27,461 nucleotides of DNA. Source: a virus. The notes under the pieces were generated by a model. It saw nothing but the letters and a program-made list of their open reading frames with translations, did not search any database and had not been told where the DNA came from. Each line of letters starts with the position of its first letter. Positions within the stretch are counted from its first letter, which is position 1. Below, piece after piece: positions 1 to 27,461 of the stretch. The position numbers were made by a program, and so were the translations under genes. The DNA lies in IMG/VR virus record IMGVR_UViG_3300031576_000245, positions 1 to 27,461 of that record. One strand, 5' to 3'.

Positions 1-1389
1 GCGAACCGGGCCGACCTGTTCAGCCTCGTCGAGTCGGGGCAGATCACCGAAGTCGGGCAGGCGCCAGCGCCGGTCACGGCCGAGGACATCGAGCAGATCG
101 TCGAAGCGAAGGTCGAAGCGAAGGTCGAAGCGAAGGTCGGCGCCGTTCGCACCGCGCAGGCGACCGAAGTGAAGATCGCCGCACGCACCGGGCTGCCGGA
201 CAGCGTGAAGGCGCGCATCCGGGCGCGGGTCGCCGGGCAGTCGCTCGATGAGAGCGCGCTCGACGCCGCGATCAAGGACGAGGTGGACTACGCGGCTGGC
301 CTCGCCCCGGCGATCATCCGCGAGTCCGGTGGGTCCATCGTGCCCGGCAAGTCCGAGCAGGAACGGATCGTCGAGACGATCTACGGCGGCCTGAAGGACG
401 ACAACAAGTTCTCGATCAAGTCGATGTACGTCGATCTGACCGGGGACCGCGCCTTCAGCGGCAAGCTCGCCGAGGGTGGCCGACTCACCGAGTCGATCAC
501 GACCTCGACCTTCGCCGAGATCATGGCCGACTCCGTGACGCGGCGGATGCTCGACTACTACGCGATGCCGGGCCTCGACTCGTGGCGCCAGATCGCGAGC
601 GTCGGTCGGGTGACGGACTTCCGCACCCAGCGGCGCATCCGGTACGGTGGCTACGGGAACCTGCCCGCGGTCGCGCAGGGCGCGGCCTACGCCGCGCTCA
701 CCTCGCCGGGTGACGAGGAAGCGACGTTCAGCGCCTCGAAGCGGGGCGGCACCGAAGACTTGACGATGGAGACCATCGTCAACGACGACCTCGGCGCCCT
801 GCGCGACATCCCGCGGCGGCTCGGCCGGGCGGCGGCGCAGACGCTGCACGAGTTCGTGTGGGACTTCCTCGCGACGAACGGGGCGATCTACGATGCCGTG
901 GCGCTGTTCCATGCGACCCACGGCGGCAACCTCGCCACGACGGCGCTCGACGCGACATCGCTGAAGGCGGCACGTCTCGTCATGCGGAAGCAGACGGACA
1001 TGAGCAACAGCAAGCGGCTCGGGATCAACCCGCGCTTCCTCGTCGTGCCGTCGGACCTCGAAGGTGTCGCCTACGAGCTGACGGCCACCGATCGCGAAGT
1101 TGCCAGCGCGAACAACACACTGAACTTCGTGCGCACGTTCGGACTGGGGATCATCGTCGTCGAGTATCTAACCGATACGAACAACTGGTTCCTCGTCGCC
1201 AGCCCGGCGGATGTCCCGACGATCGAGGTGGGCTTCCTGAACGGGCAGGAAAGCCCCGAGCTGTTCCTTCAGGACCAGCCGACGGTGGGCAACGTGTTCA
1301 GCAACGACAAGCTGACGTACAAGGTCCGGCACATCTACGGCGGGGCTGTGCTCGACTTCCGTGGCTTCACTGGGAACATCGTCGTCTAG
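1..1389 (+). CDS. Major capsid protein (Mu gpT-like), 5'-truncated, with scaffold-like N-terminal segment
   Basis: The reading frame is open from the first base, so the start lies outside the window; 462 residues are visible. The first ~60 residues are acidic and helical, with VEAK repeats, and resemble a scaffolding or linker segment. The body, from about residue 120, has features of Mu gpT-type major head proteins: an LTESITTSTFAE segment, a middle stretch with ALFHATHGGNL, and RLGINPRFLVVPSDLE. The protein would form the icosahedral shell. In some phages of this type a prohead protease is fused upstream of the capsid domain; the visible N-terminus fits such a fusion, but the protease itself would be off the left edge, so that is inference. 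The GTG at 169 is internal and is not the start. The gene ends just before a 12-bp hairpin. Confidence 0.85.
   Translation, partial: ANRADLFSLVESGQITEVGQAPAPVTAEDIEQIVEAKVEAKVEAKVGAVRTAQATEVKIAARTGLPDSVKARIRARVAGQSLDESALDAAIKDEVDYAAGLAPAIIRESGGSIVPGKSEQERIVETIYGGLKDDNKFSIKSMYVDLTGDRAFSGKLAEGGRLTESITTSTFAEIMADSVTRRMLDYYAMPGLDSWRQIASVGRVTDFRTQRRIRYGGYGNLPAVAQGAAYAALTSPGDEEATFSASKRGGTEDLTMETIVNDDLGALRDIPRRLGRAAAQTLHEFVWDFLATNGAIYDAVALFHATHGGNLATTALDATSLKAARLVMRKQTDMSNSKRLGINPRFLVVPSDLEGVAYELTATDREVASANNTLNFVRTFGLGIIVVEYLTDTNNWFLVASPADVPTIEVGFLNGQESPELFLQDQPTVGNVFSNDKLTYKVRHIYGGAVLDFRGFTGNIVV
100..138 (+). repeat. 12-bp in-frame tandem repeat in the capsid gene
   Basis: The unit gtcgaagcgaag is repeated three times perfectly and followed by a partial fourth copy (gtc). 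It encodes VEAK repeats in the segment between the presumed scaffold part and the capsid domain. The charged, helix-favouring repeat suggests a coiled-coil or flexible linker whose length could vary by replication slippage. Confidence 0.9.
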
Positions 1390-1401
1390 CTGAAGTAAGG
1401 G

Positions 1402-1433
1402 GAGCCCGGACGTACCCCGAGACGTCCGGGCTC
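1402..1433 (+). terminator. Perfect 12-bp hairpin after the capsid gene
   Basis: The arms gagcccggacgt (1402-1413) and acgtccgggctc (1422-1433) are exactly complementary around an 8-base loop. There is no T-run after it, so it may attenuate or protect the 3' end of the abundant capsid message rather than fully terminate; the next gene starts 27 bases later with no obvious promoter. Confidence 0.6.
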
Positions 1434-1460
1434 TCACCCCCGGGAGGTTAGGAGCGCACG

Positions 1461-1802
1461 ATGCCGAAGACGAACTTCCCTGACGGGATCACCGTCGAAG
1501 GGGCGAAGGGGCCAACCGTCGGAGTGGCCGACGGCTACAAGATCGCCCGTGGCGAGGTCGCACTCGACGGCGCAAACCCGACGCCCGTGGCGACCGGGCT
1601 CACGACCGTCGTCGCCTTCTCGGCGACCCTGAAGGGCACCGCGGCTCCCGGCGACAGCACGAGTGTCCTGACAGCCGACATCAGCGGCGCGACCGTCAAT
1701 GTCTACGCATGGAAGCACACGACCGGCGGCGCGTCAGGCAACCCGACGCTCATCGCGAGCACGGGCACCGAGAGCTTCTACTGGACCGCAATCGGGACTT
1801 AG
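1461..1802 (+). CDS. Putative head decoration-type protein
   Basis: A 113-residue protein directly after the major capsid gene, preceded by a good ribosome site (gggaggttagga) about 8 bases before the ATG. It is rich in Thr, Ala, Val and Gly with alternating hydrophobic residues, as in small beta-sandwich virion proteins, and ends with SFYWTAIGT. Position and size are what is seen for capsid decoration or stabilising proteins, but I recognise no specific family, so the role is inferred from context. It has no signal peptide or membrane segment. Confidence 0.75.
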   Translation: MPKTNFPDGITVEGAKGPTVGVADGYKIARGEVALDGANPTPVATGLTTVVAFSATLKGTAAPGDSTSVLTADISGATVNVYAWKHTTGGASGNPTLIASTGTESFYWTAIGT

Positions 1803-1804
1803 CG

Positions 1805-1957
1805 GTGGGACTTCTGCCGAACGTGAACCGCTGCTCGACCTGCGGTCGGATCGTCGTCGAGTACGGCCGCAGGCCGTGCCCTCGGGATGGGTCGCTGGCA
1901 CGCACGTTCACGCGCAACGTGAAAGAGCCCATCCGGCTAAAGGATCGCGTCACTTGA
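1805..1957 (+). CDS. Small zinc-knuckle protein
   Basis: A 51-residue frame with GTG at 1805, two bases after the stop of the preceding gene, so it is probably translated by coupling. It carries CSTCG at residues 10-14 and a further Cys near residue 25, reading as a mini zinc ribbon (C-x2-C-x11-C), and a basic C-terminus. An ATG at 1709 in the same frame would lie deep inside the upstream gene and is less likely. Function unknown; such small CxxC proteins are common between phage head genes. Confidence 0.55.
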   Translation: MGLLPNVNRCSTCGRIVVEYGRRPCPRDGSLARTFTRNVKEPIRLKDRVT

Positions 1958-1976
1958 TTGTGAGAGGACGGAACGC

Positions 1977-2783
1977 ATGAACCTGATCCGCTCCGCGCGC
2001 TCGCGTCCCCGCACGACCATCGAGTCGCTGCCGGACGGCGCGATCCTGTCGATCCTCCGCGGGCGCCGGGTCGAGCAGCGGCTTCGGCTCGGGCCGAACG
2101 AGGTTCACGGCCTCGTCATCCATGCCGACGGCTCCTATGAAGACCTCGGGATTAGTCACAATCTGCTCACGAACTCCGGCCGCGACCTCGTGGCCGAAGC
2201 CCTCGGTAAGACCGGCTTCGGCGTCACCGGCACGATCGCCACGGCCAGTTCTGCCACCTCGCTCACCGCGACCGGCACGCCCTTCACGGCGGACCAGTTC
2301 AAAGGCTGGATCGTCATCGCGGAGGAGAGCACGAACGCGCCGGTCTTCGGGAACATCGGCTCGAACACGACGTCGGTCCTAACGATCGACGCATGGCGGA
2401 CGGGCGACGACACGGCGGGCACGACCCCGGCGGCGACTGCGAACTACCTGATCGTCCCGAACCTTCGGCCGCGCTACATGGCGCTCACCGAGAACGCGGC
2501 CGCCGCGGCGGCGACCGATACCGTGCTGACCGGCGAAATCACGACCGGCGGCGCGAACCGCCAGCTCGCAACGTGGGCGCACACTGGCGGCACGGCGACC
2601 CTGACGCTCGTGAAGTCGTATTCGATCACGGCGAGCTTCCCGGCCATTCACAAGATGGGCCTGTTCACGGCCTCGACCCTGACGGCCGCGGGCGTCATGG
2701 TCTTCGAGTCGGTCCTGAATGCCGACGCGAACGTGGTCTCCGGCGATACGCTTCAGGTCACCGATACGATCACCCTGAGCTAA
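1977..2783 (+). CDS. Virion-associated protein, unknown
   Basis: A 268-residue protein with ribosome site gagagga before the ATG. The first 55 residues are Arg-rich, then comes a conserved-looking HNLLTNSGRDLVAEAL segment at about residues 60-76, and the rest is a Thr/Ala/Gly-rich, beta-type sequence ending LQVTDTITLS. Phage tail-fibre and head-fibre proteins often contain a similar 'LTxxGxxxLA' helix followed by beta structure; that resemblance is the only basis for calling it structural. It sits between decoration and connector genes, so it could be part of a head fibre together with the following repeat protein. Confidence 0.7.
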   Translation: MNLIRSARSRPRTTIESLPDGAILSILRGRRVEQRLRLGPNEVHGLVIHADGSYEDLGISHNLLTNSGRDLVAEALGKTGFGVTGTIATASSATSLTATGTPFTADQFKGWIVIAEESTNAPVFGNIGSNTTSVLTIDAWRTGDDTAGTTPAATANYLIVPNLRPRYMALTENAAAAAATDTVLTGEITTGGANRQLATWAHTGGTATLTLVKSYSITASFPAIHKMGLFTASTLTAAGVMVFESVLNADANVVSGDTLQVTDTITLS

Positions 2784-2798
2784 GCCGAGGCCGCCTGA

Positions 2799-4754: not shown

Positions 4755-4757
4755 GTC

Positions 4758-8323: not shown

Positions 8324-10510
8324 GTGGCCCGTCGCGAACAGGTCGGGATCGACGTCACCGCGAACGCCGAACAGGCGGTTCGGGAGATCAACCGTGCTGG
8401 CGGTGCGATCCGCGGTATCGGCGGCTCCTCCGTGCAGGCCAAGCAGGACGTCGGCGGGCTGGGAGGCGGCATCCGCTCACTCGCGACTGGCGCGATCATG
8501 GGCGTCGGGATGCAGGCATTCAATGCCTTCGCCGGGATGGCTGGCGGTCTCACTGGCGCCGTCATCGGCATGAACTCAACGTTGGAGAAGTCCGAGATCC
8601 AATTCGAGACGCTGTTCAAAGACGCCGACCGGGCGAAGGAGCACGTCGCAAACCTGTTCGAGTTCGCTAAGAAGACGCCGTTCGAGACTGGGCCGATCAT
8701 TCAGGCGAGCCGGACCCTTCAGACATTCGGTGGCGACGCCCTGAACACGATGGCGAACCTGACGATGATGGGCGACGCTGCCGCCGGCGCGTCGGTGGAC
8801 ATCAATGAGGTCTCGTTCTGGGTCGGCCGCGCCTATGCCGCCATTCAGGGCGGCCAGCCGTTCGGCGAGGCACGGATGCGCCTTCAGGAGCTGGCCCTGC
8901 TGTCCCCGCAGGCGGCGCAGAAGATGGAGCAGCTTCAGAAGGCCGGGGCCTCGACCGCAGAGGTATGGCAAGTCCTTCAGGGCGAACTCGGCCGATTTAC
9001 CGGCGCGATGGAGAAGCAGGCCGATACGTGGGAAGGTCTGACGTCCACGCTCAGCGACACCCTTAAGCTGTTCCTCGCTCGCGTCCTGAAGCCCGTATTC
9101 GATGCCATGAAGGCCGGGCTGCGCGGCGTCATCCAGCTCGTGACGAACCTGAGCGATGCGCCGTGGGACGAAATCCTGCGCGTTCTCGTCGGGCTCGGGA
9201 CCGTCGTCACGATCTTCGTCCTGCCGCCGATGATCGCCTGGGCAGCGGCCACGATCGCGGCGACGTGGCCGATCCTCGCGCTCGTGGCGGCCGTCGGAGT
9301 CCTCTGGACGGCGGTCTCCGGCCTGTTCGGCATGGGGCCGCTCGAAGCCCTCATCGAAACCTTGTCGTTCATCGGCGAGAAGGTCATGCAGCTCGTCGGC
9401 TTTATCGCTACCGTGGCGCAGGCCGTCGGCGACTTCCTCGACCCGACCGGGGCCGCCTTGCGGAAGGCGGCCGAGGAAGCTGAGGCCGAAAGCGCCCGTC
9501 TTCAGGCGGCCGAGGATGCGATGGCTTCAGCAGCCGCCTTCAAGGCGCAGGAACGCGCGGATCAGATCGGGGCCGTGGCCGAGGAAATCCCTGAAGCCTT
9601 CGCGGACGCTCGCGAGGACGCCGTGGAGGAAGTCCGTCGAACGATGGTCGATGTCGCTGCCGAGATCGCGCGAGGTCGAAAGGGGGTTGTCGATGCGATG
9701 AGCGGGTTGATCAGCGGCACCTACGATCCGCTGATCCTCGCGGGCAAGATCGCTGCCACGCAGGCCGAGCTGAGCAGCGCCGATCTTGCGAAGAAGCTGC
9801 GATCGAAGGACCCTGAGATCAGGCTGGCCGCGGAGCAGCGGCGCCTCGGACTCCTGAAGGAGCTGGCGGAATACAACGTCGAGGCCGGGCAGTATGGCGA
9901 TGACGCGGCCTACTCGGCGTTCCTGAAGTCACAACTGTTCGGTCAGCAGATGGCCGCCGGTCTCGCGTCAACCGATGATGTCCGCCGCTCGGCGGCGCAG
10001 GCGGCGGTGCAGATCATCATCGACGAGCTGGCGAAACAGCCTGAGAAGTACCGAACATGGGGTGAACGGACGGGCAGCGCATGGGTCGACGGGATGATCG
10101 CGAAGATGCAAGGGCGCTACTCGGAGTTCTACAATCAGGTCCACCGCTACGGGCTCCTCCTGCACGCCGAGTCGCCGCCCGGGCCCGAGTCCCCGCTGCA
10201 TGAGATCGACAAGTGGGGCGAGCGCACGGGTGGAGCGTGGGTGCAGGGCCTGATCGACTCGCTCTCGACGCTCCGCCCGATCTTCAGGGCGTCGCTCAGT
10301 GATGCCGGGACGCCGCTTCAGGCTCGTTCGTTCGATCAACCCTTCGTCCCGCCAGCCTCGATCGGGCCGAGTATCACGATCATCCAGAACTTCGGCCCGT
10401 CGTCGGTCCGCTCGCGCGAGGACATCCGGGACATCGCGAACGAGACCGCCCTGCGCGCCCGTCTCCTCGGATCAACCGCCTCGTCCCGGGCGGTTGGGGC
10501 GCTGACATAG
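8324..10510 (+). CDS. Tape measure protein
   Basis: A 728-residue protein from GTG 8324 with agagga as ribosome site. The N-terminus (residues ~50-240) matches the tape-measure N-terminal domain: a hydrophobic Gly-rich helix, then a FETLFKDADRAKEHVANLFEF segment, an FAKKTPFETGPIIQAS segment and LMGDAAAGA-type helices. Residues ~287-380 hold several hydrophobic membrane-active helices (IFVLPPMIAWAAATIAATWP, LALVAAVGVLWTAVSGLF). The remainder is helical, with an SPPGPESPLHEIDKWG element near residue 620. At about 1.5 angstrom per residue, a general rule for this family, it would set a tail of about 110 nm. It would determine tail length and leave the tube during DNA entry. Confidence 0.9.
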   Translation: MARREQVGIDVTANAEQAVREINRAGGAIRGIGGSSVQAKQDVGGLGGGIRSLATGAIMGVGMQAFNAFAGMAGGLTGAVIGMNSTLEKSEIQFETLFKDADRAKEHVANLFEFAKKTPFETGPIIQASRTLQTFGGDALNTMANLTMMGDAAAGASVDINEVSFWVGRAYAAIQGGQPFGEARMRLQELALLSPQAAQKMEQLQKAGASTAEVWQVLQGELGRFTGAMEKQADTWEGLTSTLSDTLKLFLARVLKPVFDAMKAGLRGVIQLVTNLSDAPWDEILRVLVGLGTVVTIFVLPPMIAWAAATIAATWPILALVAAVGVLWTAVSGLFGMGPLEALIETLSFIGEKVMQLVGFIATVAQAVGDFLDPTGAALRKAAEEAEAESARLQAAEDAMASAAAFKAQERADQIGAVAEEIPEAFADAREDAVEEVRRTMVDVAAEIARGRKGVVDAMSGLISGTYDPLILAGKIAATQAELSSADLAKKLRSKDPEIRLAAEQRRLGLLKELAEYNVEAGQYGDDAAYSAFLKSQLFGQQMAAGLASTDDVRRSAAQAAVQIIIDELAKQPEKYRTWGERTGSAWVDGMIAKMQGRYSEFYNQVHRYGLLLHAESPPGPESPLHEIDKWGERTGGAWVQGLIDSLSTLRPIFRASLSDAGTPLQARSFDQPFVPPASIGPSITIIQNFGPSSVRSREDIRDIANETALRARLLGSTASSRAVGALT

Positions 10511-10511: not shown

Positions 10512-13500
10512 GTGGGCGTCGGCCAGCTCCTAATCAATGCCATCGACCGCACGTCGATGGTCCACGAAGATGCGTTCGAGGCCGAGTTTCAGGCGAACCG
10601 GCTGAACGGTGTCCTGACCGCTCTCCTGAAGGACGACGCGGCGTTGACAGGCGGGACGCCGATCATCTTCCGCGAGCAGGACGAGGTTCTGTTGAACGAC
10701 GGCGGGACCCGGGTATGGGGCGGCCGTCTCGCGGTCGCCGAGCCACGCCTCATGGGCAAGTCGATCCTGTGGAACATGCGCGCCCAGTCGTTCGATGTCC
10801 TGCTCGATCAGCGGGTCATCGAGTCGGGCGTGCGCACGGGTGCGCGAACCGATGCCTCGGACGTGCAGTTTATCGCTGGTTTCCACACCGAGCTTGAGTC
10901 GGCGACCTTCGTCTCCACCCTGAAGGCCACCGGGCTGCCGGATATGGACTACTCGGGCATGACGCTCCGCAAGGCCCTAGAGCGGTTGATGCAGGAGGTC
11001 ACCGGGGCGATCTACTGGGTGGACGAGAACAAGAAGGTCCACTGGACCGATCCCCAGTCAGCGCAGAAGGTCACGAACACCGGCTGGGACAGCGGCGCCT
11101 CGACTGGCTGGGGACTTGATGGCTCGGCGGTCGTAACGGCGGATGCCGGACCGGGAGGTACGGGCGACTACGCCCTAATCACGACCGGCAACGCCGCCGG
11201 ACGCCATGAGTCCACGCAAACGGTCACGGGGATCGTCGGGAACCGGCGCTACCTGTTCTACGCGGACCTATGGAGCAGCGTGTCGGCCAGCGCGACCGTC
11301 AGGCTCGACTGGCAGAACGCCGGCTCCGTATCGCAGCGGATCGACGTGATCACCTCATCCGGGGCGACCTCGACGTGGGCGCGGAACAAGGCCGTCTACT
11401 CAGCCCCGGCATCGGCGACGAAGGTCATCGTCATGCTCGGCGGGATCAACAACTTCACCGGAACAGTCCGCCATGACAACGAGAATCTGGTCGAGGAGAC
11501 GGCCGCCTTCGGGATCGACACGGCGCAGATCGCAGGCACCTTCGCACCGCGCGACTGGCGCGAACCGCGGGACGCCGCGACGCCGATCAACCGTGTCCTT
11601 ATCCGTGGTGCCGGGATCAGCGGTTGGCGCGAGCACGCCGCGTCGATCAGCTACTTCGGCGGCAAGAAGTTCGAGGGCGTGCTGGACGATCTCCGGGTCA
11701 CGACAGCGGACGGGATCGACAGTCGGGCCGCCTACGTCTTCCGCAAGTTCGCCTTCCCGGCCCGCCACGGCAGCTACTGGACGGATCAGACGACCCTGAA
11801 GGCCGGGACGTGGCAGATCGTCTCGATCAGCCCACTCAATCACCTGACGATCGAATACATCGCGACCCTGAAGATCAAGTTCAGGGGCGCGAACACGATG
11901 CGTTACGACGTCACCTATGGGGACCCGCAGGAGGACATCGCGAGCATGATCGCGGCGCAGGGTGCCGTGATCGCCGATGGGACAGGCGAGGTGAACGTCC
12001 CTGACAACCCATCGGCCGACGCAATCGCCCCGGCTGTTCCGACCGGGCTGTCGGTGACGTCGGCGACAAAGCTGCAACCCGACGCGACACTGGCGCCCTA
12101 TCTGCTCGCTTCATGGACTGCGGTCGCCGATGCGGACCTCGACGCTTACGAGCTTCAGATTGACCGCGGTCTCGCTGGTCAAGTGACGTTCACCTCGTCG
12201 GCCTCGGGCGCCGCGGGGTCGCTTCCGGCAGGCGACTATGCCGTACAGGTCACCGGCAACGGACTGATCTCAGGCGAGACGGCAACGGCCGTTCCGCCGC
12301 AAGTGGTCACGGTGGCAGCGGGCCAGCGACTGTTCGTGAACATCACGGCGAAGGTCGGCTGCGTCTCGTACCGGGCCTACGCCTCGATCCTGACCGGCAG
12401 TGAGCAGCAGCCGAAGGCGACGGCGCAGACGGCGATCACGACGACGGGTTCAGATGTCGAGATCACCGCCGCCGGAACCGGAGCGATCCCGCCCGTCTCA
12501 TCCACGGCACTCGCCTTCCTGAACCCGACGAGCGTCCGCGGCCGGGCCGTGTCGTTCTACACCGACGACGCGATCGGCGGGCTGTTCTACGGCGCGCGAG
12601 TCCGGGCGATCGACAAGGCCGGGAACCTGTCGGCTTTCACGTCTGTCGTGACGGTGACGGCCGGGGCGGATACGACAGCTCCGACGATCCCGACCGGATT
12701 GACTGCAATCGCTGGCTTCCGGCTCGTGGGACTCGCGTGGGGCGCCGTCGGCGACAGCGACCTCTCGACGTACGAGGTGCGCTGGTCGGCCGATGATGGG
12801 ACGGGGCAACCCGACGAGCAGTGGACGAAACGGGTGGCACTCGCCAACATCGCGGTCATCTCCGGGCTCGATCCCGGATCGGATGCGGCCCCGGCCGTCC
12901 GGTACTATTTCGAAGCCCGCTCGATCGACCGCTCGGGAAACACGCGGACGAGCATCGCTGACGCGACGGCCATCGAGGCGGCATCGAACCCCGAAGCTGG
13001 CTGGTCGAACTCGGCCGCGGCGGTATCCGGTGGCCTCTCGACAACACTCGCCGCCGCCGCATCGGCCGGGGCGACGAACATCAAGGTCACTTCGGTCACC
13101 GGGGCCGCTGTCGGCGATCGGCTACGCATCCACGGTGGTCCACCGACAGAGTTCCGCACGATCACCGTCGTCGGCACGGCCGGGGCCGGTGGGACCGGAC
13201 TCGATCTCGACGTCGCTCTCGCAATCGCGCACACGAATGGGGCGCTGGTCGTCGAAGTCGCCGACGACTGGGTGACGGCGATCCCGACGCGGATCGGGCA
13301 GGCCGACATCGCAGCGAACACGGTCACCACGAACATGATCTCCACCGTCGGGCTCGACGCATCGGTGGTCCGCTCAGGGACTGTCGAAGTCGGGGGGCGG
13401 GCGAACACCCCGGACTTCCTGCTCGTCTATGACACCTCGGGCAACGAAATCGGACGCTGGGATGCGAACGGTCTCGTCGTCGTGGACGCGACGACGCCGA

Positions 13501-13812: not shown

Positions 13813-16800
13813 ATGGCGACGCGGAACCTCTCGATCTCGAAGGACACGCTGCTCGCGCTGACGGGTTCGACGAACCTCGGCGGCGGGAACGACGACCACC
13901 TTCCCGTCGGCTATTACTCAACGTACCGTTTCCGGGCGGCGCTGAAGTTCACTCTCGACTGGACCGGCGTCGTGCAGATCACGAGCGCCCTGCTCTACCT
14001 GAAGACGACGAGCGTCTTCCATACGACCTTCGGCTCGGACCCCGATGTCTACATCGAACGGATCACGGGCGCGAACTTCACCGAGAACAGCGGGCGCTCG
14101 TCCGGCGATTCCCCGGCTGGCGGCGGTTGGAACGGCAACGTCTCGGACTACGCCGACGTCGTATCGACGAGCACAAACCGGGTCACGTGGGACGTCTCGC
14201 CGCTGACGCAGGACACGTGGGTCACGGTGGACGTCTCGCCGCTGCTCGAAGACTGGGCTCCGACGACTGTCAAGAAGCGCGATGGCAGCCCGGGCGCAAA
14301 CCTGTCGAACTACGGGATGCTGCTGAAGCCCGTCGTCGAGGCAGATGGCACCGAGAGCATCGAGTTCTATTCACGGAAGTCTGCCTATGACCCGTACATC
14401 GTCCTGACCTACTCGACGAACTCCGCGCCGAGCGCGCCGACGAACGTCAAGCTCGATGCGAAGGCGTCCGGTTCGGACCTCGTTGGCTCGGACAACAACT
14501 ACACCCTGTCGTTCACCGGCAACGATCCCGATGCCGGAGATGTGCTTCAGAAGTACGACTATCAGATCGACACGACGTCGAATAACCTCGTCGAACCTGA
14601 CTGGGCAGCCCTGACGGCGGACGTCGCGAACGCGACCGCCGGTATCACCGGCCAGTCGGTCTCGACGACGATCACCCACACGCTGACCCGTGGTCAGTGG
14701 TATGCGATGCGGGTTCGCACCTACGACGACGACCTCGCGGTGGGGCCATGGTCCACGACCTACTGGTTCAGGATCAACAGCCTGCCGACGATCGGCACGA
14801 AGACGCCCGGGGCATCGGCGCTCGCCTACATTCACAACCTCGCAACCGACCTCGTGACATGGACCTCGGCCGGTTCGCACGCGAAGGCGCGCGTGCAGTT
14901 CGTTTACAACGACGCGGGGGGGCAATCCTCGTCGGCTTACAGGGTGAAGCTCTACAACGACAACGTTGGCGCGAAGGGCACCGAGCTGTGGGACTCGACG
15001 AAGACCTCGAAGGTCGCCACGCCGGGCACGACGATCACCGTCGATACGGCGCAGGCGCTCGTTCTCGGGACGCAATACTGGTGGGCTGTTGAGGTGTGGG
15101 ACTCGCTCGATGAGTCTTCGGGTGCCGTGGACTCGGCCGCGGCTACCCAGTTCAAGGTCCGCTGGGGCCAGACGATCTACGAGCAGAACCCCGGAGCCGG
15201 AACGAGCGCATGGCAGTTCAGCAATGCGACACCGACGAACGGCTATGCGGGATTCCTGTTCCGGTCGGCGACGGGGGCCGCGGGCGCTGGGGCCGGGGCA
15301 TGGAAGACCACGATCGGCGCGGTCACGGTCTCCGCCTGGGTGAACTTCCTCGTGCGGCTTGCGCCGAACGTGGCCGGGACGAACGTCACGCTCGCGAACA
15401 TGACCTACACCTACATCGGTTCCGCGACGACCCCCGACCGCTGGGCGACAACGGGCGGGCCAACGATCGCGCTCGATCCATCCGTCCGGCGCTTCGGTTC
15501 CCAGTCGCTGCTCGTCACAACGGCCGCCGCGACGTGCAAGGTCTACCCGTATACGAACGCGACGACCGACATGGTGGTCGTGCAGCCCAGCGTGCAATAC
15601 AGCCTATCCGCGTTCGTAAAGACGGACGGCGTAATCGCCACCGGGATCAGGCTCGCTCTCTACGATGCAGACGGGGTAGCGATCCTAACCGATGGGCTAA
15701 CGGGGGCCGCGATCGTCTCAGCAACGACGACCGACACCTCGTCCTATACGGATGGCTGGCAGCGCCTCTCAGTGACCTTTATCTGCCCCGCCGAGACGGC
15801 GGCCCGACCGGCGATCGAATACCTCGGCACGACGGCCTCGCAGCGGTTCTGGATCGACGCGGTGCAGATGGAAGTCGGGCCGGTCGTGTCGCCGTGGAAG
15901 CCCGGCTTCGTCGGCGATGCGCTGACGATCGACTCGAACGGGCTTCAGGTCGATGCGTTCGCAGGCGGCATCTTCCGCTTGCGAGGCTCGGGTGGCGCGA
16001 CACGAGACACCGTGGAGCTGGCGGGCCGGGGGCTCCTGTTCGGCGGCGCGACAGCCAAACAGCAGATATATGCCGAGACATACGCCAGCAAGGAAACACT
16101 GATCGTCCACGATGCGGCAGCCGGGATCGGTGGTGCGATCCTGCTGACTGCGGTCGGAGGCTCCACGGTGGCTGCGCAGGGCCGGTACGGGATCAGGGTG
16201 ACCGGGGACACCGGCTATCGAGTGCGACTGACGAACAGCGTCAATGATTCCGACGCCTCGCCCGGGATCGTGCTGGGCTCCGGTGCTGTCGATGACGCCC
16301 GCATCTTCCGCTCGACGGCCGCTGGCTCTGTGTTCGTAGACGCGGCAGGATCAGCCAACGATACGACCTTCCGGGTGCAGGGAACCGCCGGGCAGCGGGC
16401 GTTCTCGGGTGTTCTCATCGTGGGCGACGCCGCCTCGCGGATCGGGATGTACGGTGATGCGACGAAAGTCGGGATCGAGATGGGGCCGGGGAGTGCGGCC
16501 CGAGACGTCCATTTCTACCGGATGGCGGACAAGCAGGTCAGGCTCGACACAGATGGCGCCGCGACAGGGCTCGAACGCATCCACCTGCAAGGCCGGACGA
16601 GTCTCGGGACGCTCATCTCACCGACGGCTCTCACGGCGAACGCGAACGATTGGAACCCGACCGGGCTCGCGACTGCCTCGATCATCCGGGCGACCTCGGA
16701 CGCGACGGTTCGGACGATCACCGGGATCATCGCCGGGAACGCCGGGGACCTTCTCATCCTGACGAACGCGAACGCCTCGACGGCGATCACGCTCGCCCAC

Positions 16801-16929
16801 GAGTCGGCGTCGAGTGCCGCTGCCAACCGTTTCTTCTGCCCGGGAAACGTGGACGTCTCGTTGACGTCGCGCTCGACAGTCTGGCTCATCTACGACAACG
16901 CCTCGTCTCGGTGGCGGGTGAGCGGGTAG
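13813..16929 (+). CDS. Tail fibre / receptor-binding protein with DNRLRE, FN3 and carbohydrate-binding modules
   Basis: A 1038-residue protein one base after the previous stop. Residues ~1-200 resemble a DNRLRE-type domain (repeated strands, WDVSPLTQDTWVTVDVSPLLEDW). Residues ~205-450 carry two FN3-like units (SAPSAPTNVKLDA; DYQIDTTS; QYWWAVEVWDS). Residues ~540-700 are a jelly-roll carbohydrate-binding-like module (FGSQSLLVTT ... YSLSAFVKTDG ... FWIDAVQMEVG). Residues ~700-930 are short beta repeats likely forming a shaft. Residues 936-1038 are a conserved fibre tip (LTANANDWNPTGLATASIIR ... VWLIYDNASSRWRV). It would bind the host surface; the modular build suggests exchange between phages. 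Confidence 0.8.
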   Translation: MATRNLSISKDTLLALTGSTNLGGGNDDHLPVGYYSTYRFRAALKFTLDWTGVVQITSALLYLKTTSVFHTTFGSDPDVYIERITGANFTENSGRSSGDSPAGGGWNGNVSDYADVVSTSTNRVTWDVSPLTQDTWVTVDVSPLLEDWAPTTVKKRDGSPGANLSNYGMLLKPVVEADGTESIEFYSRKSAYDPYIVLTYSTNSAPSAPTNVKLDAKASGSDLVGSDNNYTLSFTGNDPDAGDVLQKYDYQIDTTSNNLVEPDWAALTADVANATAGITGQSVSTTITHTLTRGQWYAMRVRTYDDDLAVGPWSTTYWFRINSLPTIGTKTPGASALAYIHNLATDLVTWTSAGSHAKARVQFVYNDAGGQSSSAYRVKLYNDNVGAKGTELWDSTKTSKVATPGTTITVDTAQALVLGTQYWWAVEVWDSLDESSGAVDSAAATQFKVRWGQTIYEQNPGAGTSAWQFSNATPTNGYAGFLFRSATGAAGAGAGAWKTTIGAVTVSAWVNFLVRLAPNVAGTNVTLANMTYTYIGSATTPDRWATTGGPTIALDPSVRRFGSQSLLVTTAAATCKVYPYTNATTDMVVVQPSVQYSLSAFVKTDGVIATGIRLALYDADGVAILTDGLTGAAIVSATTTDTSSYTDGWQRLSVTFICPAETAARPAIEYLGTTASQRFWIDAVQMEVGPVVSPWKPGFVGDALTIDSNGLQVDAFAGGIFRLRGSGGATRDTVELAGRGLLFGGATAKQQIYAETYASKETLIVHDAAAGIGGAILLTAVGGSTVAAQGRYGIRVTGDTGYRVRLTNSVNDSDASPGIVLGSGAVDDARIFRSTAAGSVFVDAAGSANDTTFRVQGTAGQRAFSGVLIVGDAASRIGMYGDATKVGIEMGPGSAARDVHFYRMADKQVRLDTDGAATGLERIHLQGRTSLGTLISPTALTANANDWNPTGLATASIIRATSDATVRTITGIIAGNAGDLLILTNANASTAITLAHESASSAAANRFFCPGNVDVSLTSRSTVWLIYDNASSRWRVSG

Positions 16930-16943: not shown

Positions 16944-16973
16944 GAACCTCTGACGGAAACCCGTCAGAGGTTC
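16944..16973 (+). terminator. Strong hairpin terminator after the tail genes
   Basis: Arms gaacctctgacgg (16944-16956) and ccgtcagaggttc (16961-16973) pair perfectly over 13 bases with an aaac loop, 14 bases after the fibre gene stop. Only a short T-run (gttt) follows 2 bases later. Confidence 0.8.
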
Positions 16974-16993
16974 CGTTTACCGGGAAAGAAACA

Positions 16994-17017: not shown

Positions 17018-17198
17018 CGGAGTCGACATAACCGCGGGATTCCCCCTGCATCCACGCAAGGCTAACCCGCCGGTGGGCTGCAGTCATGCCATCATGCCGT
17101 CACGCCACCGGGTTGTCAACCACGATATCCACACCAAACCACTACCGGTGAGCGGGTAGGCTTGACGTGTGGCTGACCGGCTCGTCACAATGCCAGCC
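17018..17198 (+). other. Intergenic region before the lysis module
   Basis: No convincing gene. It holds the only CTGCAG I found in the window (about 17079) and, at 17162-17191, a candidate promoter. A GTG at 17169 and an ATG at 17190 are in frame with the following small gene and could extend it upstream. Confidence 0.5.
17162..17191 (+). promoter_or_regulatory. Candidate promoter for the lysis module
   Basis: TTGACG (17162-17167) and CACAAT (17186-17191) are separated by 18 bases. Transcription would begin at about 17198-17200, directly at the ATG of the first lysis gene, which lacks a ribosome site. Confidence 0.4.
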
Positions 17199-17336
17199 AT
17201 GACACCCGAGGGGTTCCTGCTCGCGTTCAGCCTCGGCTTCATGTGCGGGCTCGTCGCAGCGATCGTCATACCGGCGGCCGTGGCGGTGATTGACGCTTTC
17301 GAACGACGCTATCTTGTTCGTCGCCGTGGCAGGTGA
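17199..17336 (+). CDS. Small one-pass membrane protein
   Basis: A 45-residue protein: one long hydrophobic helix (residues ~4-31: LLAFSLGFMCGLVAAIVIPA and on) followed by a strongly basic tail (FERRYLVRRRGR). This is the pattern of small phage lysis or membrane proteins with the tail in the cytoplasm. No Shine-Dalgarno site is visible; a candidate promoter places the transcript start at the ATG. In-frame alternative starts exist at 17169 (GTG) and 17190 (ATG). Its position just upstream of the lysin suggests a holin or spanin-like accessory role, but no family is recognised. Confidence 0.55.
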   Translation: MTPEGFLLAFSLGFMCGLVAAIVIPAAVAVIDAFERRYLVRRRGR

Positions 17337-17532
17337 TGGACACGACTTCCGCATTGCGCGGATCGGGGCATCGCTCGCGCTCATCGGCGTCGTCGTATTT
17401 CTGCTCATCGCCGATGCCCTTATGGCGGCATACGAGGCCGACGCGGTAATCGTGACGAGCGTGCTCGGCGCCGCCGCTGCCCTGCTCGGCGTCGAGATCA
17501 TCGGCTTCCTGACCCGGCGCAACGGGCATTAG
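17326..17532 (+). CDS. Two-helix membrane protein, holin candidate
   Basis: Read from GTG 17326, it overlaps the previous gene by 11 bases and gives 68 residues; a TTG at 17290 would give 80. Two clear membrane helices are present: IGASLALIGVVVFLLIADAL and AVIVTSVLGAAAALLGVEII, joined by a short acidic loop, with a basic end (TRRNGH). This is a usual class II holin layout. It lies directly before the lysin gene. The start is uncertain because no ribosome site is evident. Confidence 0.6.
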   Translation: MAGDGHDFRIARIGASLALIGVVVFLLIADALMAAYEADAVIVTSVLGAAAALLGVEIIGFLTRRNGH

Positions 17533-17555: not shown

Positions 17556-18410
17556 ATGGGTTACGAACCGCTGTTCCGCAAGCAGTTGACGGGGACGCCG
17601 TGCGGCCACGCGAACTGCAACATGGCTGCCGCCGCCCACCTCGCGGACCGGGCGACACTCGGGCTCATCCGTAAGACACCCGACCAGATGCGGACGCTCT
17701 CGGGCACCGCTGCGAACTGCCTTGACGCGAACCAGCTCAACGACGGCACGAGTCAGGCCGACGCCCTCCGTGCGCTGGCGAAGTGCGGCCTCGTGCCGAC
17801 GCAGTACGACCGGACGGACGGCTTCGACGCCTCGGAGTTCCGGGCGGCCATCCAGAGCGGCCGCGGCGCGATCGTCGCGGGCGATTACGACCGGGTGCCG
17901 GTCGGCCTGCGTGGCGACCGTGAGTTTCTGAACTTCCACGGCATCTTCGCGAACGAGTGGCGCGCGTCGGTGGTCATCCCGCCGCGCTACGAGTTCAAGG
18001 GCTATACCGGGCCCGCATACCGAACGTGGGACAGCCTCAACGACGGGCGCATCGACAATCCAAGTCGCAAAGTCGCGCCGAAGGGACCGATATGGTGGCC
18101 CGCGCCGGTCATGCACGCCTTCGCCGAGGCGATGGCGACCGGCAGCGGCAACTTCCTCGCTATCGTCGCCGACCTCGGCAGCGCGACGGTGCGGGTGTCC
18201 ACCGGGAAGGCGAACGTCCGCGACGTCGCGGCCCTCACCGGGGCGATTATCGCGACCCGGTTCTCGGGCGCGAAGCTCGAAGCCTCGCCGCTGCCGGACA
18301 TCGGCGGCGCCGCCGGTTCCGGCGATACCCGCTGGTTCCGCGTGTGGCTGCCCGAGCTAGCGCGAGTCGGGTTCATGCACGCGAGCGTCATCACGGTGAC
18401 AGGAGGGTAG
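17556..18410 (+). CDS. Putative endolysin: C39-like cysteine peptidase domain plus SH3-like domain
   Basis: A 284-residue protein with ribosome site gaagggag. Residues 12-35 (GTPCGHANCNMAAAAHLADR) resemble the active-site helix of C39-like/papain-fold peptidases, with Cys16 the likely nucleophile. His128 (NFHGIF) and Asp159 (TWDSLNDG) fit the remaining catalytic residues in order. Residues ~210-281 (STGKANVRDVAALTGAIIAT ... WFRVWLPELARVGFMHASV) look like an SH3b cell-wall-binding domain. This peptidase/SH3 combination amid holin-like genes points to a lysin cutting peptidoglycan cross-bridges. An alternative is a peptidase of other substrate; the catalytic assignment is by pattern only. Confidence 0.75.
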   Translation: MGYEPLFRKQLTGTPCGHANCNMAAAAHLADRATLGLIRKTPDQMRTLSGTAANCLDANQLNDGTSQADALRALAKCGLVPTQYDRTDGFDASEFRAAIQSGRGAIVAGDYDRVPVGLRGDREFLNFHGIFANEWRASVVIPPRYEFKGYTGPAYRTWDSLNDGRIDNPSRKVAPKGPIWWPAPVMHAFAEAMATGSGNFLAIVADLGSATVRVSTGKANVRDVAALTGAIIATRFSGAKLEASPLPDIGGAAGSGDTRWFRVWLPELARVGFMHASVITVTGG

Positions 18411-21301: not shown

Positions 21302-21343
21302 TCGTTCACCTCCGTCTGAGCCGGGGAATGCCCGGGCACCACA

Positions 21344-22521: not shown

Positions 22522-22523
22522 CT

Positions 22524-22538: not shown

Positions 22539-22542
22539 GCTT

Positions 22543-22559
22543 TGACAGATGACCTGTCA
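22543..22559. promoter_or_regulatory. TGACAG-N5-CTGTCA inverted repeat
   Basis: Six-base arms with the same TGACA/TGTCA core as the operator region at 21355-21388. It lies between the DUF932 gene and the exonuclease gene, with TTGACA overlapping its left arm but no good -10 at 16-18 bases. Confidence 0.45.
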
Positions 22560-22595
22560 CGGTCGGGGGCCAGCCTCACCGTCGGAGGTGAACGC

Positions 22596-23555
22596 ATGAC
22601 GATTGACGCCCAGTGGCATGAGGACCGGAAGACCGGCATCGGTGGCTCGGACGCCCCGGCCGTCATGGGTCTCTCGCGCTTCGGCCGGGGGCCGATGAGT
22701 GTGTGGCTTGACAAGGTTGGGATGACCGACCCGAAGGAACCGACCCTCCGCCAGTGGATCGGTCTGCGGCTCGAAACGATGATCCGCGAGATGGCCGAGG
22801 TGCGGCTCGGGCTGAAGTTCCGACGGCGCTACGGCCTGATCCGCTCGTCCGAGTACCCATGGATGATCGGCAACGTGGATTTCGTGGGACTCGAAGTGAA
22901 GACGTCCTACGGCGCCGAAGGCTGGGCCGACGACGGTCAGATGATCGCCTCGGACTCGGACCTCGACGTGATCCCGATCGACTATCTGCTTCAGGTCCAG
23001 CATTACCTCATCGTCACTGGCTGGAAGCGGTTGTTCGTGGCGGTGCTCATCGGGCATGACGACTTTCGCACCTACGAGGTGCATCCCATGCCCGGGCTGG
23101 CTGCGCGCATCATCGAGGCCGAGCGCGAGTTCTGGCATGTCTTCGTCGTGCCGGGCGTGCCGCCGCCGGTCGATGACACCGAGGCGTCGAAGGCATGGCT
23201 CCGCCAGAAATACCCGCGCGTCATGGGCGAGCTGCGCGCGGCGACACCCGAGGAAACGCTGTTGCTTGACCAGCTCGGCCTCGCCGGGCTGAACGCGAAG
23301 CAGGCAGGCTCACAGTACGAGACCCTTCAGGCCCGCCTGAAGGCGGCGATCGGCGATGATCTCGGCATCCGCGCGGCGGGCGTCACGGCGACATGGCCGA
23401 TCGTCGAGCGCAAGGCCGAGCTGAACTGGGAAGCGATCGCCCGGGCGTACCGGGCGATCATCGAGGGCGCGCCGATGGCCGATCTCGATGCTATCGTCTC
23501 GTTGCACACGAGCACGCCGGAGACATACCGACGGCTCAACGTCTCTCGGAGGTGA
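22596..23555 (+). CDS. YqaJ-type viral recombinase exonuclease
   Basis: A 319-residue protein. ATG 22596 has ggaggtgaa at ideal spacing; a longer in-frame start at 22464 lies within the upstream gene and is rejected. It has the core of the YqaJ / lambda-exonuclease nuclease fold: TGIGGSDAPAVMG (residues 13-25), GLRLE (E60), GNVDF with D95, the E100-V-K102 pair followed by TS, and QVQHYL (133-138). These residues bind the metal ions. It would resect duplex DNA 5' to 3' and hand single strands to the RecT protein encoded directly after it, for phage recombination or replication. Confidence 0.9.
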   Translation: MTIDAQWHEDRKTGIGGSDAPAVMGLSRFGRGPMSVWLDKVGMTDPKEPTLRQWIGLRLETMIREMAEVRLGLKFRRRYGLIRSSEYPWMIGNVDFVGLEVKTSYGAEGWADDGQMIASDSDLDVIPIDYLLQVQHYLIVTGWKRLFVAVLIGHDDFRTYEVHPMPGLAARIIEAEREFWHVFVVPGVPPPVDDTEASKAWLRQKYPRVMGELRAATPEETLLLDQLGLAGLNAKQAGSQYETLQARLKAAIGDDLGIRAAGVTATWPIVERKAELNWEAIARAYRAIIEGAPMADLDAIVSLHTSTPETYRRLNVSRR

Positions 23556-23560
23556 ACGTC

Positions 23561-24628
23561 ATGGCTCGACAGGCAACCCCACCGGCAGCGGCGGTCATCC
23601 AGCCGCGGGCCGATCCAGCGAAGCAGTACGCGGCAATCGCCGACGCGATCCAGCGTGAGAACGACAAGCTCGGGCGCTCGCTCGCGGCTTCCCACGTCCC
23701 GGCCGAGCGGTTCTTCGCCGTCGTCGATCAGGCGCTCCGACGGTCCCCGGCGCTGCTCTCCTGCACGCCCGCCTCGATCGTGCGGGCCCTGCTCGATGCG
23801 GCCGAACTCGGGCTGGTCCCGTCGGGCCTGCTCGGCTCGGCGTACCTCGTGCCGTATCGGAATAAGCGCAGCGGACGGCTAGAGGCCCAGTTGATCCCGG
23901 GATACCGTGGCCTCATCGACCTCGCGCGGCGATCCGGGGAACTGCGGCAGATCGAAGCCCGCGTCGTGCGTGAGCGCGACGACTTCGACATCGTGTTCGG
24001 GACCGATGGCAAGGTCCTCCATCGACCATTCATCAACCGGGGCGAGCGCGAGCCGATCCTCGACACGCAGACGGGCCTGCCCCGGCTCGATCCGGTGACA
24101 GGTGGTCCTGAGACGAAGCTCGCCGACGCCGGGTCCTTCGTCGGCGTCTACTGCATCGCGCGGCTCGCGCACGGTGCGGAGCACGTCGAGTGGATGTCAT
24201 GGACTGAGGTGGAGGCCGTTCGGCGTCGATCGAAGGCGGCCGACGATGGGCCATGGGTCACCGACCCCGCGGAGATGGCAAAGAAGACCATCACCCGGCG
24301 GACGGTGAAGTACCTCCCACTGGCGATCGATTCGCCGGTCATCCGGGCCCTCGAACTCGAAGATCGGGCCGAGGCCGAGGCCGAGGAACGCCGGGCGACG
24401 TCTGCGCCCGCCAGAAACGCCCTACACGCCGCGCTCGGGCTCGTTGCGCTGTCTGAGGGCACCGCCGCGGCTGACGCGGCGCCTAGCCCCGAATCTGACG
24501 GGCAGGCGGCCTGCGGCGAGGCGGCCCCGGATGGCTCCGGGGCCTGCGCGAAGGTCGGGGGTCACGACGGGCCCCACGCGAACGACGAGGCCGTCTGGCC
24601 GGTGGGCGGCGATGCAGCCGGGGAATGA
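23561..24628 (+). CDS. recT: RecT-family single-strand annealing protein
   Basis: A 355-residue protein with ggaggtgaacgtc before the ATG, five bases after the exonuclease gene. The RecT core is clear: FFAVVDQALRRSPALLSCTP (residues ~49-68), SIVRALLDAAELGLVPSG, YLVPYRNKRSGRLEAQLIPG, YRGLIDLARRSGELRQIEAR, and KKTITRRTVKYLPL near residue 245. It anneals complementary single strands made by the exonuclease. The C-terminus carries an added Cys/His segment at ~315-345 (ACGEAAPDGSGACAKVGGHD then GPHANDEAVW), which may bind zinc and is not part of the usual core. Confidence 0.92.
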   Translation: MARQATPPAAAVIQPRADPAKQYAAIADAIQRENDKLGRSLAASHVPAERFFAVVDQALRRSPALLSCTPASIVRALLDAAELGLVPSGLLGSAYLVPYRNKRSGRLEAQLIPGYRGLIDLARRSGELRQIEARVVRERDDFDIVFGTDGKVLHRPFINRGEREPILDTQTGLPRLDPVTGGPETKLADAGSFVGVYCIARLAHGAEHVEWMSWTEVEAVRRRSKAADDGPWVTDPAEMAKKTITRRTVKYLPLAIDSPVIRALELEDRAEAEAEERRATSAPARNALHAALGLVALSEGTAAADAAPSPESDGQAACGEAAPDGSGACAKVGGHDGPHANDEAVWPVGGDAAGE

Positions 24629-24827: not shown

Positions 24828-25098
24828 CGGGGGCTGTGTCGCACTGAAGATCGACCCGGACGCCGGGCCCTGCGCGGATCGCTGGGGCAACGAGCATCGC
24901 TGGGCTGTCCTCGCCGACCTGACCTTCGATCACGTCAAGGACGAGCCGGGGATGGGGTTCCGCTCGGAGATCAATCCAGCAACCGGGTTCCGCACCTCCG
25001 ATCCGGGTCATCTCGTGACGCTCTGCGGGCGCCACCACCTGACGTCAGGCTGGGCGACGTCGCATCGGCCCGAGCTGCGGGCGTATCTTCTGAGCTGA
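24763..25098 (+). CDS. HNH nuclease-like protein
   Basis: A 111-residue protein from ATG 24763 with ggaagggga upstream; it overlaps the previous frame by 65 bases. An in-frame GTG at 24790 is an alternative start. It contains RRSVFARDGGCV (residues ~15-26), LTFDHV (the first His of the motif, ~53-58) and HLVTLCGRHHLTSGW (the later Asn/His positions, here RHH), with Cys residues placed to hold zinc. This is the HNH pattern found in small phage nucleases and Holliday-junction or nicking factors; the usual central Asn is not evident, so activity is uncertain. Confidence 0.75.
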   Translation: MRQRPRRDGVTSETRRSVFARDGGCVALKIDPDAGPCADRWGNEHRWAVLADLTFDHVKDEPGMGFRSEINPATGFRTSDPGHLVTLCGRHHLTSGWATSHRPELRAYLLS

Positions 25099-25476
25099 AT
25101 GTTGAATGAGGATGATCTCCTGCGCGCCTATGGAGTGGCGGCCGTGATCGCCGAGACGGTTTCCACTGTTCCGGTGGATAGCCTGTGGACAACGCCCCGG
25201 CTTCCCCAGCCCTGCGAGGCTGGCTGCCCCACGCTGACGCTGGCCGATCAGTGTCATTACCATCGCGGGACCCGCCGGGAGGCGATGACCAGCTCCCGCC
25301 TGTGGGAGTTGATCGTCGAGGGATACGCCTTCCTCGCTGTGCTAGGATGGGCGCCGACGGTCGCGGCGCGAGCGTCGAGGGCAGCGGGTGACGGGCCGAG
25401 GGACCACAAGCTCTCGGCCCTCCCCGCGAAGCCTGACCCGGCTGGGTCGTCTTGTGGAGGACGGAACGATGCCTAG
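25099..25476 (+). CDS. Cys/His-containing protein, unknown
   Basis: A 125-residue frame starting at ATG immediately after the HNH stop (TGAATG) without a clear ribosome site, so coupling is assumed. An N-terminal helix (DDLLRAYGVAAVIAETVS), a putative zinc site (PCEAGCPTLTLADQCHYHRG, residues ~37-56), a helix (SSRLWELIVEGYAFLAVLGW) and a low-complexity end. It overlaps the following gene by 8 bases. No family recognised. Confidence 0.55.
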   Translation: MLNEDDLLRAYGVAAVIAETVSTVPVDSLWTTPRLPQPCEAGCPTLTLADQCHYHRGTRREAMTSSRLWELIVEGYAFLAVLGWAPTVAARASRAAGDGPRDHKLSALPAKPDPAGSSCGGRNDA

Positions 25477-26203
25477 GTCGTACCTCCGGGTCCTGCCCGA
25501 GCTGTACGAACGACGCCTATTCGGCTCGGAGCGACACCGGCCGAACTCCATCCCGCAGACGCTCGCGTTTGTCGGCGTCCTCTGCTTCGCCGAGCAACAG
25601 TCGCCGCGCGGTAGGTTCAAGAGCCGCGCCGTACTCGAAGCGCTGCTGGCCGGGCCGAAGGGGGCGGGCCGTCCGCTCATGCGTGAGGTTGGCTTTCTCA
25701 TCGAACAGGGGGACCTCGTATCGCAGCCCGATGGCTCGCTGTACGTCGAGGGCTGGGATGAGCTTCAGGAGGGTAACTGGCAGGTGGCCGAACGCATGGC
25801 GCGTTACCGTGCCCGCAAGGGGGAGGTTACGGCCAGAGTTACACCGGCCGTTACGGTGCCCGTTACGACCGATGCCTCGCGCGTAGGTAGCAGAAAGGCA
25901 AATAAGCGTAAGGGCATAGGGGGCAACGGCGTTACGCCGACCCCCCGACAACTGACTCATCTGTGGCTCTCCGACCACGGGGCTGCCACCCCAGTCGGCT
26001 GGGTGAACACCACGCTGAACGAACTGGTCAAGGTCTACGGCCACGAGGCGGTCATCGCGGCGTGGGAACGATCCGGCATCGGCAGGGGGACCTCGAAGCA
26101 GTACATTCAGTACGCCGAGCAGGGCCTCGCGGCAAGCCCACGCTCGAAACTGTCGGGCCACACTCGCACCGCACAGGAAGGTCAGGATGCTTTCGACCGC
26201 TGA
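25469..26203 (+). CDS. DnaD/O-like phage replication protein
   Basis: A 244-residue protein. ATG 25469 has ggaggacgg upstream; a longer in-frame start at 25388 lacks one. The N-terminal part (residues ~1-100: SYLRVLPELYERRLFGS ... LMREVGFLIEQGDLVSQPDG) looks like a winged helix, then comes a polar linker (MARYRARKGEVTARV, basic RKANKRKG), and the C-terminus (TPTPRQLTHLWLSDHG ... WVNTTLNELVKVYGHEAVIA) resembles the DnaD C-terminal helical domain. Located just before a DnaC-like loader, it is likely the replication initiator that recruits the helicase-loader complex; origin binding is inference. Confidence 0.7.
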   Translation: MPRSYLRVLPELYERRLFGSERHRPNSIPQTLAFVGVLCFAEQQSPRGRFKSRAVLEALLAGPKGAGRPLMREVGFLIEQGDLVSQPDGSLYVEGWDELQEGNWQVAERMARYRARKGEVTARVTPAVTVPVTTDASRVGSRKANKRKGIGGNGVTPTPRQLTHLWLSDHGAATPVGWVNTTLNELVKVYGHEAVIAAWERSGIGRGTSKQYIQYAEQGLAASPRSKLSGHTRTAQEGQDAFDR

Positions 26204-26849
26204 TCTCAGGCCAGAGGTTGTCCTGCCGGTTCGGTTCAGGGACCGGACGCTGGACACATTCGAAGGCTCGCCGACGGCCGCCGCCGCCGCCCGTAGGCTT
26301 GCGACCGGCCAGATCACGAACCTCGTGCTCTCCGGGCCGACGGGTGTCGGCAAGACGCACCTGGCGGCCGGGATCGCGAGGCTGTGGTGGGAGAGGGAAT
26401 GGCAGCAGTTCGAGCGGAAACGTGGCGCCGAACGGCTGGAACGGGACGCAGAGATTGCCGCCCTCGTGCCGTGGGAACGGATCAGGTGGCGGGTGCGGCA
26501 GCCCGAAGCCCCGGTATGGGTGAACGTCGCCGAGGCGATGAGCAACCTGCGAAGCGAGATCGGAGGGGACGAACGCCCGGCCGAGGAAAGCCTCCGCCGT
26601 CTCCGTGATCACGGCTCGCTGGTCGTGCTCGACGACCTCGGCCGAGAGAAGGTCAGCGACTGGACGAGCGAAGTCGTGTACGTCCTCGTCAACTGCCGGT
26701 ACGAGTCGATGGTGCCGACGGTCGTGACGACGAACCTGACGGGCGCAGAGCTGGCGGCCTCGTCGTACTGGCCGGTGATTTCGCGGCTGGCGGAAGGTGG
26801 CGGACTAATTCGCATCGAGGCCGCGGACCGACGCTTGCGACGGGCTTGA
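26187..26849 (+). CDS. DnaC-like helicase loader ATPase
   Basis: A 220-residue AAA+ protein overlapping the previous gene by 17 bases. Walker A is GPTGVGKTH (residues 50-58), Walker B is VVLDDLG (~146-152), and a sensor-like TTNLT follows at ~181. An extended helical insertion (residues ~65-108, REWQQFERKRGAERLERDAE) lies between Walker A and B. This is the DnaC/IstB-like loader family, which places the replicative helicase on DNA. The partner initiator is encoded directly upstream; no helicase gene is seen before the right edge. Confidence 0.9.
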   Translation: MLSTADLRPEVVLPVRFRDRTLDTFEGSPTAAAAARRLATGQITNLVLSGPTGVGKTHLAAGIARLWWEREWQQFERKRGAERLERDAEIAALVPWERIRWRVRQPEAPVWVNVAEAMSNLRSEIGGDERPAEESLRRLRDHGSLVVLDDLGREKVSDWTSEVVYVLVNCRYESMVPTVVTTNLTGAELAASSYWPVISRLAEGGGLIRIEAADRRLRRA

Positions 26850-27017
26850 CGGGTTGTGGTAGGGTGAAAGAAGCGGAAACGCGCTACGTGGCCTGAAGTC
26901 TCGGATAGCACAGGGCACGGGAGGAATAGCGACTCGCGCGATGATCCGGCCTGCCGGGGAGCGTGGAGGCGCCGTTCACCTCCGGGCAGCGTCCGAGAAC
27001 CGCTAGCGGAGGTGGAC
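26850..27017 (+). other. Structured intergenic leader
   Basis: 168 bases without a gene I can support. It has an extended -10-like TGGTAGGGT (about 26857-26865, -35 poor), then ccggc-ct-gccgg, ggagg / cctcc arms and the palindrome ccgctagcgg (27000-27009) directly before the ribosome site of the next gene. A regulatory leader is possible. Confidence 0.35.
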
Positions 27018-27260
27018 GTGGAACCGACCTACTACTGCACAGGCTGCGGGAAGCCGCGCCCCCTCGTGGCGGGATACCTGCCGATCGACGAACGCTACCC
27101 GCTCGTCCAGTGTGGGCGGGTAAAGCGCCCGGCCCTGACGGACCTGAAGGCGGCGCGCCGGGTGATCCGGGAACGCCGCAAGCGGCGCAAGCTGCTCCGC
27201 GCCGCTCTCCGCCCCCAAACCGGAGGACCTCAATGCCCAGTGAAGCCGCCGCTCCTTTAG
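27018..27260 (+). CDS. Small zinc-ribbon protein
   Basis: An 80-residue protein from GTG 27018 with gcggaggtgg as ribosome site; the GTG at 27012 lies within that site. YYCTGCGK (residues ~5-12) and a further Cys near residue 33 suggest half of a zinc ribbon; the rest is strongly basic and helical (RVIRERRKRRKLLRAALR). The pattern fits nucleic-acid binding. Function unknown. Confidence 0.65.
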   Translation: MEPTYYCTGCGKPRPLVAGYLPIDERYPLVQCGRVKRPALTDLKAARRVIRERRKRRKLLRAALRPQTGGPQCPVKPPLL

Positions 27261-27461
27261 ACGAGGCGTGGGCGTTTGCCGAGTCACAACTGCTGAACGG
27301 CTGGCGGTTGGAGTCTCTACGGCGGCGGTACGCGGGCTCTCGGTGGATTGCCAGCGCAGTCGAAGGCGGCATCGGCCAACAGGGCCGCGCTAATGGCACC
27401 GTGCCGAACATGACCGGCACCGGACCCTCGCCAGCCGCCGCGCTCATCGACCTCGGGAACA
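27233..27461 (+). CDS. Unknown protein, cut by the right edge
   Basis: Open frame from ATG 27233 (ribosome site cggagga, 6 bases upstream), overlapping the previous gene by 28 bases and running off the window after 76 codons. Visible: an N-terminal helix DEAWAFAESQLLNGWRLESL, RRRYAGSRWIASA and a Gly/Asn/Thr-rich stretch, then PSPAAALIDLG, a pattern seen in small phage proteins with a strand-helix build. Too little is visible to name it. Confidence 0.6.
   Translation, partial: MPSEAAAPLDEAWAFAESQLLNGWRLESLRRRYAGSRWIASAVEGGIGQQGRANGTVPNMTGTGPSPAAALIDLGN

Follow-up and report, generated by a model that had tools for sequence, protein, structure and literature searches.

A phage genome fragment nearly free of CTSSAG and of many other Type II-form sites

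Four related hexamers, CTGCAG, CTCGAG, CTCCAG and CTGGAG (together CTSSAG), are nearly absent from an IMG/VR virus record of 27,461 bp with a G+C content of 66.7%, hereafter the window. This raises the question of whether the phage has shed the target of a restriction enzyme and, if so, whether the four words represent one target or several. It is established that phages avoid restriction sites, chiefly those of orthodox Type II enzymes, whereas Type IIG sites are not generally avoided; in dsDNA phages, 7.1% of phage-site pairs for orthodox Type II enzymes showed elimination, compared with <0.5% for other types (Rusinov et al. 2018, PMC6286503). Broad-host-range plasmids avoid 6-bp Type II targets by tuning their composition, with stronger avoidance where host range is broad (Shaw et al. 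2023, PMC10359461). Our main reading is that the phage escapes several Type II restriction systems, one of which probably recognizes CTSSAG; taken whole, we give this statement a probability of about 0.5.

The window and its genes

Genes recognized in the window include the following.

169–1389, + strand: major capsid protein (PHROG 29592, 4523, 133)
8324–10510, + strand: tape measure protein, one of several tail genes (PHROG 973 and others)
22593–23555, + strand: YqaJ/RecE-like exonuclease (PHROG 434, PF09588)
23561–24628, + strand: RecT-like annealing protein (PHROG 148, PF03837)
26187–26849, + strand: DnaC-like helicase loader (PHROG 50)

Neither a terminase nor a portal gene was seen among the window ORFs scanned, so the window is probably a fragment of a larger phage genome. 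The ORFs scanned in this fragment gave no match to restriction-modification or methyltransferase families, and the window contains no tRNA.

Deficit of CTSSAG

The positions that define the deficit are given here, with strand where one applies.

1–27461: phage fragment with CTSSAG nearly absent (1 versus 37–38 expected; in coding sequence 0 versus 27 under a codon-preserving shuffle)
17078–17083: CTGCAG, the sole CTSSAG word, in the intergenic stretch that separates a tail gene (end at 16929) from the small genes after it
8882–8887, + strand: CTTCAG, an example of the word that replaces CTGCAG/CTCCAG

The original prediction, made from the sequence alone, was that the four hexamers are almost missing, and Markov, simulation and codon-shuffle counts all bear this out. 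CTGCAG occurs once and the other three words not at all, against 38 CTSSAG words expected from a third-order Markov model and a mean of 37.4 (minimum 26) in 200 simulated sequences. The single CTGCAG had been placed near 17079 in non-coding DNA and does lie in an intergenic stretch, at 17078. The coding-sequence expectation of 27 comes from a synonymous-codon shuffle that preserves the protein, codon use and the codon-junction bases (the base following each codon). The longer word CTSSAGC appears once in the window, both strands combined, versus 77 occurrences of a reversed control word.

Neighbors of the form CTWSAG, outside the CTSSAG set, are retained (46 observed/29 expected). The accompanying claim that W-containing relatives are present held for CTTCAG/CTGAAG, which is in excess (40/19) and rules out a merged motif CTNNAG, but not for CTCAAG/CTTGAG, which is weakly low, with 1 occurrence (at 10893) versus about 6 (5.9) expected, a shortfall that CTSSAG does not explain.

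Other avoided sites in the window

The deficit had been expected to be confined to the four words, which is not the case. Scanning the full set of hexamers, together with degenerate motifs, revealed many avoided sites besides CTSSAG, with CCWGG, GCCGGC, GTCGAC and others showing losses as strong or stronger. CCWGG is the strongest deficit in the window (3 observed/64 expected), with CTSSAG next, and there are similar shortfalls in GCCGGC (3/51), GTCGAC, the SalI site (2/29), RGATCY, GAGCTC (0/11) and the asymmetric word CTCTTC (0/10), with TCCGGA, ACCGGT, CAGCTG, AGGCCT and others also avoided. Two of the residual sites are located as follows.

9237–9241: CCWGG, one of three in the window (the others at 15335 and 26360), versus 64 expected
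8595–8600: the sole RGATCY, versus 32 expected by simulation and 20 under the codon null

Twenty-one six-base palindromes fall at or below 0.3 of expectation, in addition to CCWGG and RGATCY. Avoided sites other than CTSSAG number about a dozen, and the list consists mostly of palindromes of Type II recognition-site form. A blanket loss of six-base palindromes is ruled out by the retention of CGATCG, CGGCCG, GACGTC, CCCGGG and TCGCGA. Whereas GGATCC, AGATCC and AGATCT are almost missing, CGATCG is very common, with 57 occurrences in 27 kb.

The near absence of many other sites strengthens the case for restriction-site avoidance, which had been suggested as the simplest cause of the CTSSAG deficit and is supported both by the persistence of that deficit under the codon null and by the loss of many unrelated palindromes. 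Restriction enzymes are very likely the selective agent behind the site loss. Several Type II systems would select for loss of their sites from phage DNA, and one of them, most likely targeting CTSSAG, would purge CTGCAG, CTCGAG, CTCCAG and CTGGAG together. DNA free of these sites would be uncuttable by the corresponding enzymes, and an antirestriction gene would therefore be unnecessary against them.

Site loss in related phages

Searches for closer relatives, using the window's tail, RecE, RecT and DUF932 proteins, turned up no sibling genome. G001 (L034-L035; also L005), whose capsid protein is 60% identical to that of the window, has an ordinary number of CTSSAG words (71/49). G002 (L036-L037; also L026), with a RecT 55% identical to that of the window, has lost RGATCY and CTCGAG too. 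Each phage thus has its own avoided set, which is what one would expect if the set tracks the enzymes of the respective host.

Site losses in these phages take several forms. The 40 kb of G001 display an extreme loss of tetranucleotide palindromes, with zero ACGT, AGCT, ATAT, CCGG, GGCC and TCGA where 26–99 of each are expected in coding sequence; GGACC and all GDGCHC words tested are likewise at zero. G002 (39 kb) has purged short asymmetric words as well as palindromes, including CCAG/CTGG (zero versus 111 expected in coding sequence), ACCCC (zero versus 53) and GAATC (0/59), the last against a retained GACTC (71/57), a pattern as for a GAWTC enzyme. G003 (L038-L041; also L032), of 78 kb, has zero GCCGGC (101 expected), CCGCGG (67) and CCCGGG (35), and is also without GAGCTC (32 expected), GGATCC (22), CTGCAG (21) and others.

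One degenerate site or several

Loss of a degenerate site can be distinguished from loss of separate sites by a closure test, which takes two lost palindromes whose sequences diverge at a single mirrored position. If a single degenerate site is avoided, the mixed non-palindromic word should be lost too, whereas separate sites should leave it in place. Under strict thresholds the window offered 14 testable pairs, and the mixed word was lost in one, CTCGAG and CTGCAG, where CTCCAG/CTGGAG is found 0 times versus 8.2 to 8.5 expected. Other mixed words are retained or in excess (e.g., CAGCTC 33/15, CTCGAC 64/53). Looser thresholds added AGATCC, a word of RGATCY, which is low at 1 versus 7.8, along with GAATCC and GAATGC, also low, both with small expectations. 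The four CTSSAG words behave as one set, and the test justifies their having been grouped as such at the outset.

When applied to the related phages, the closure test picked out GDGCHC and GGNCC words in G001, along with whole tetranucleotides; for G002 its result was WGGCCW. We take GDGCHC, GGNCC and WGGCCW to be real Type II specificities. No degenerate set was returned for G003 and G005.

The behavior of the four words argues for one enzyme recognizing CTSSAG, a reading that we put at about one half because the extra evidence consists of one word, CTCCAG/CTGGAG. The serious rival is that restriction avoidance did act, yet through separate PstI-like (CTGCAG), XhoI-like (CTCGAG) and GsuI/BpmI-like (CTGGAG) enzymes, or that the CTCCAG zero arose by chance, and we regard this as quite possible, at somewhat less than even odds. 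In G003 and G005, CTGCAG is gone and very little CTCGAG is left, yet CTCCAG is in excess (68/39 and 41/29), which indicates that the two palindromes can go independently. In addition, CTCTTC shows that the window is without another asymmetric word, and the choice between one enzyme and several hangs on CTCCAG/CTGGAG. However, CTCCAG is precisely what is needed to complete the CTSSAG set, and by Poisson expectation 0.02 non-palindromic hexamers with an expectation of at least 8 should be zero by chance. To our knowledge, the enzymes that cut CTGGAG are of Type IIG. Sites of Type IIG enzymes are not generally avoided by phages, and loss of CTGGAG through a separate enzyme of this type is unlikely beforehand because elimination for other types is <0.5% (PMC6286503).

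Codon choice at leucine pairs

Most of the statistical weight of the CTSSAG deficit is in frame, with 23.5 of the 27 words expected in coding sequence falling in codon frame 0 and 1.7 and 2.2 in the others. A bias in codon pairs or codon context, whereby preferred spellings of Leu-Gln, Leu-Glu and Leu-Lys make the words rare, would draw on this distribution, and the spellings are indeed skewed. Of 19 Leu-Gln pairs, 16 are written CTT-CAG, and Leu-Glu is spelled CTC-GAA (8), CTA-GAG (2) or TTG-GAG (1). These counts agree with what had been read from the sequence, including the quoted CTTCAG positions, which were accurate within a few bases (8882, 8975, 13785 and 22507). Leu-Lys is skewed too, as CTG-AAG in 17 of 19 cases with CTC-AAG at 0, and this preference lies outside what CTSSAG explains.

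Nonetheless, we consider codon-pair bias a very unlikely cause. The deficit stays under a null that retains codon use and junction bases, and CTSSAG is also zero out of frame (0 versus 3.9 expected), where a bias acting in frame only, the alternative named in the original prediction, should not reach. Furthermore, CTT-CAG relies on a rare codon (CTT makes up just 72 of 673 Leu codons), and many unrelated palindromes are lost besides CTSSAG.

Host signal

Protein matches are indecisive as to the host: the capsid protein has relatives in genomes of Actinomycetota and in a single Chloroflexia MAG, the DUF932 protein mostly in actinophages, and RecT in mixed phages. A very unlikely explanation of the deficit, that it copies the genome signature of a CTSSAG-avoiding host, is in keeping with Type II site avoidance in prokaryotic genomes, as described in PMC4687349, but CTSSAGC is present, and nowhere close to absent, in all 246 Actinomycetota genomes sampled, none of 251 genomes from the phylum of G007 (the Chloroflexia MAG with L024) is near zero for CTGGAG, and the actinobacterial loci L020-L023 carry no CTSSAG deficit. 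The composition of the sampled host groups does not explain the deficit, and the true host possibly lies outside these samples.

Relation to known specificities

None of the papers searched names CTSSAG as a motif or specificity. SmlI recognizes CTYRAG, SfcI CTRYAG, PstI CTGCAG, XhoI CTCGAG and GsuI/BpmI CTGGAG, and every one of them accounts for some of the lost words. We know of none among these that spans all four CTSSAG words yet spares CTTCAG/CTGAAG. We tentatively suggest that CTSSAG is an undescribed Type II specificity of an uncultured host, and that mixed-word loss may generally read degenerate specificities without an isolate or methylome.

As in the phage avoidance described previously (PMC6286503), the window has been nearly cleared of short words with the form of Type II sites, most of them palindromes; it differs in having lost many sites at once and in a CTSSAG set that we could match to no known enzyme. 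It resembles broad-host-range plasmids (PMC10359461) in avoiding many 6-bp palindromes, but belongs to a phage and takes avoidance to near elimination. The window is thus a strong, many-site example of known phage site avoidance, and what is new is possibly CTSSAG as a specificity. The pattern is clean enough to predict recognition sequences of the host's restriction enzymes, CTSSAG included. The mixed-word test yields known specificities in related phages and could serve other metagenomic phages, where it could predict the restriction specificities of hosts and help connect phages with them.

Residual sites near 17 kb

GTCGAC at 17022, CTGCAG at 17078 and ACCGGT at 17144 account for three of the 15 residual sites and fall within 123 bp of intergenic DNA (17022–17149). 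Their clustering as a sign of recent acquisition was set aside, with the chance probability estimated at a few percent. The trio lies 3' of a hairpin at about 16947–16975 and precedes a putative lysis cassette, judged by eye, comprising small membrane proteins at about 17201–17532 and an endolysin-like ORF at 17556–18410.
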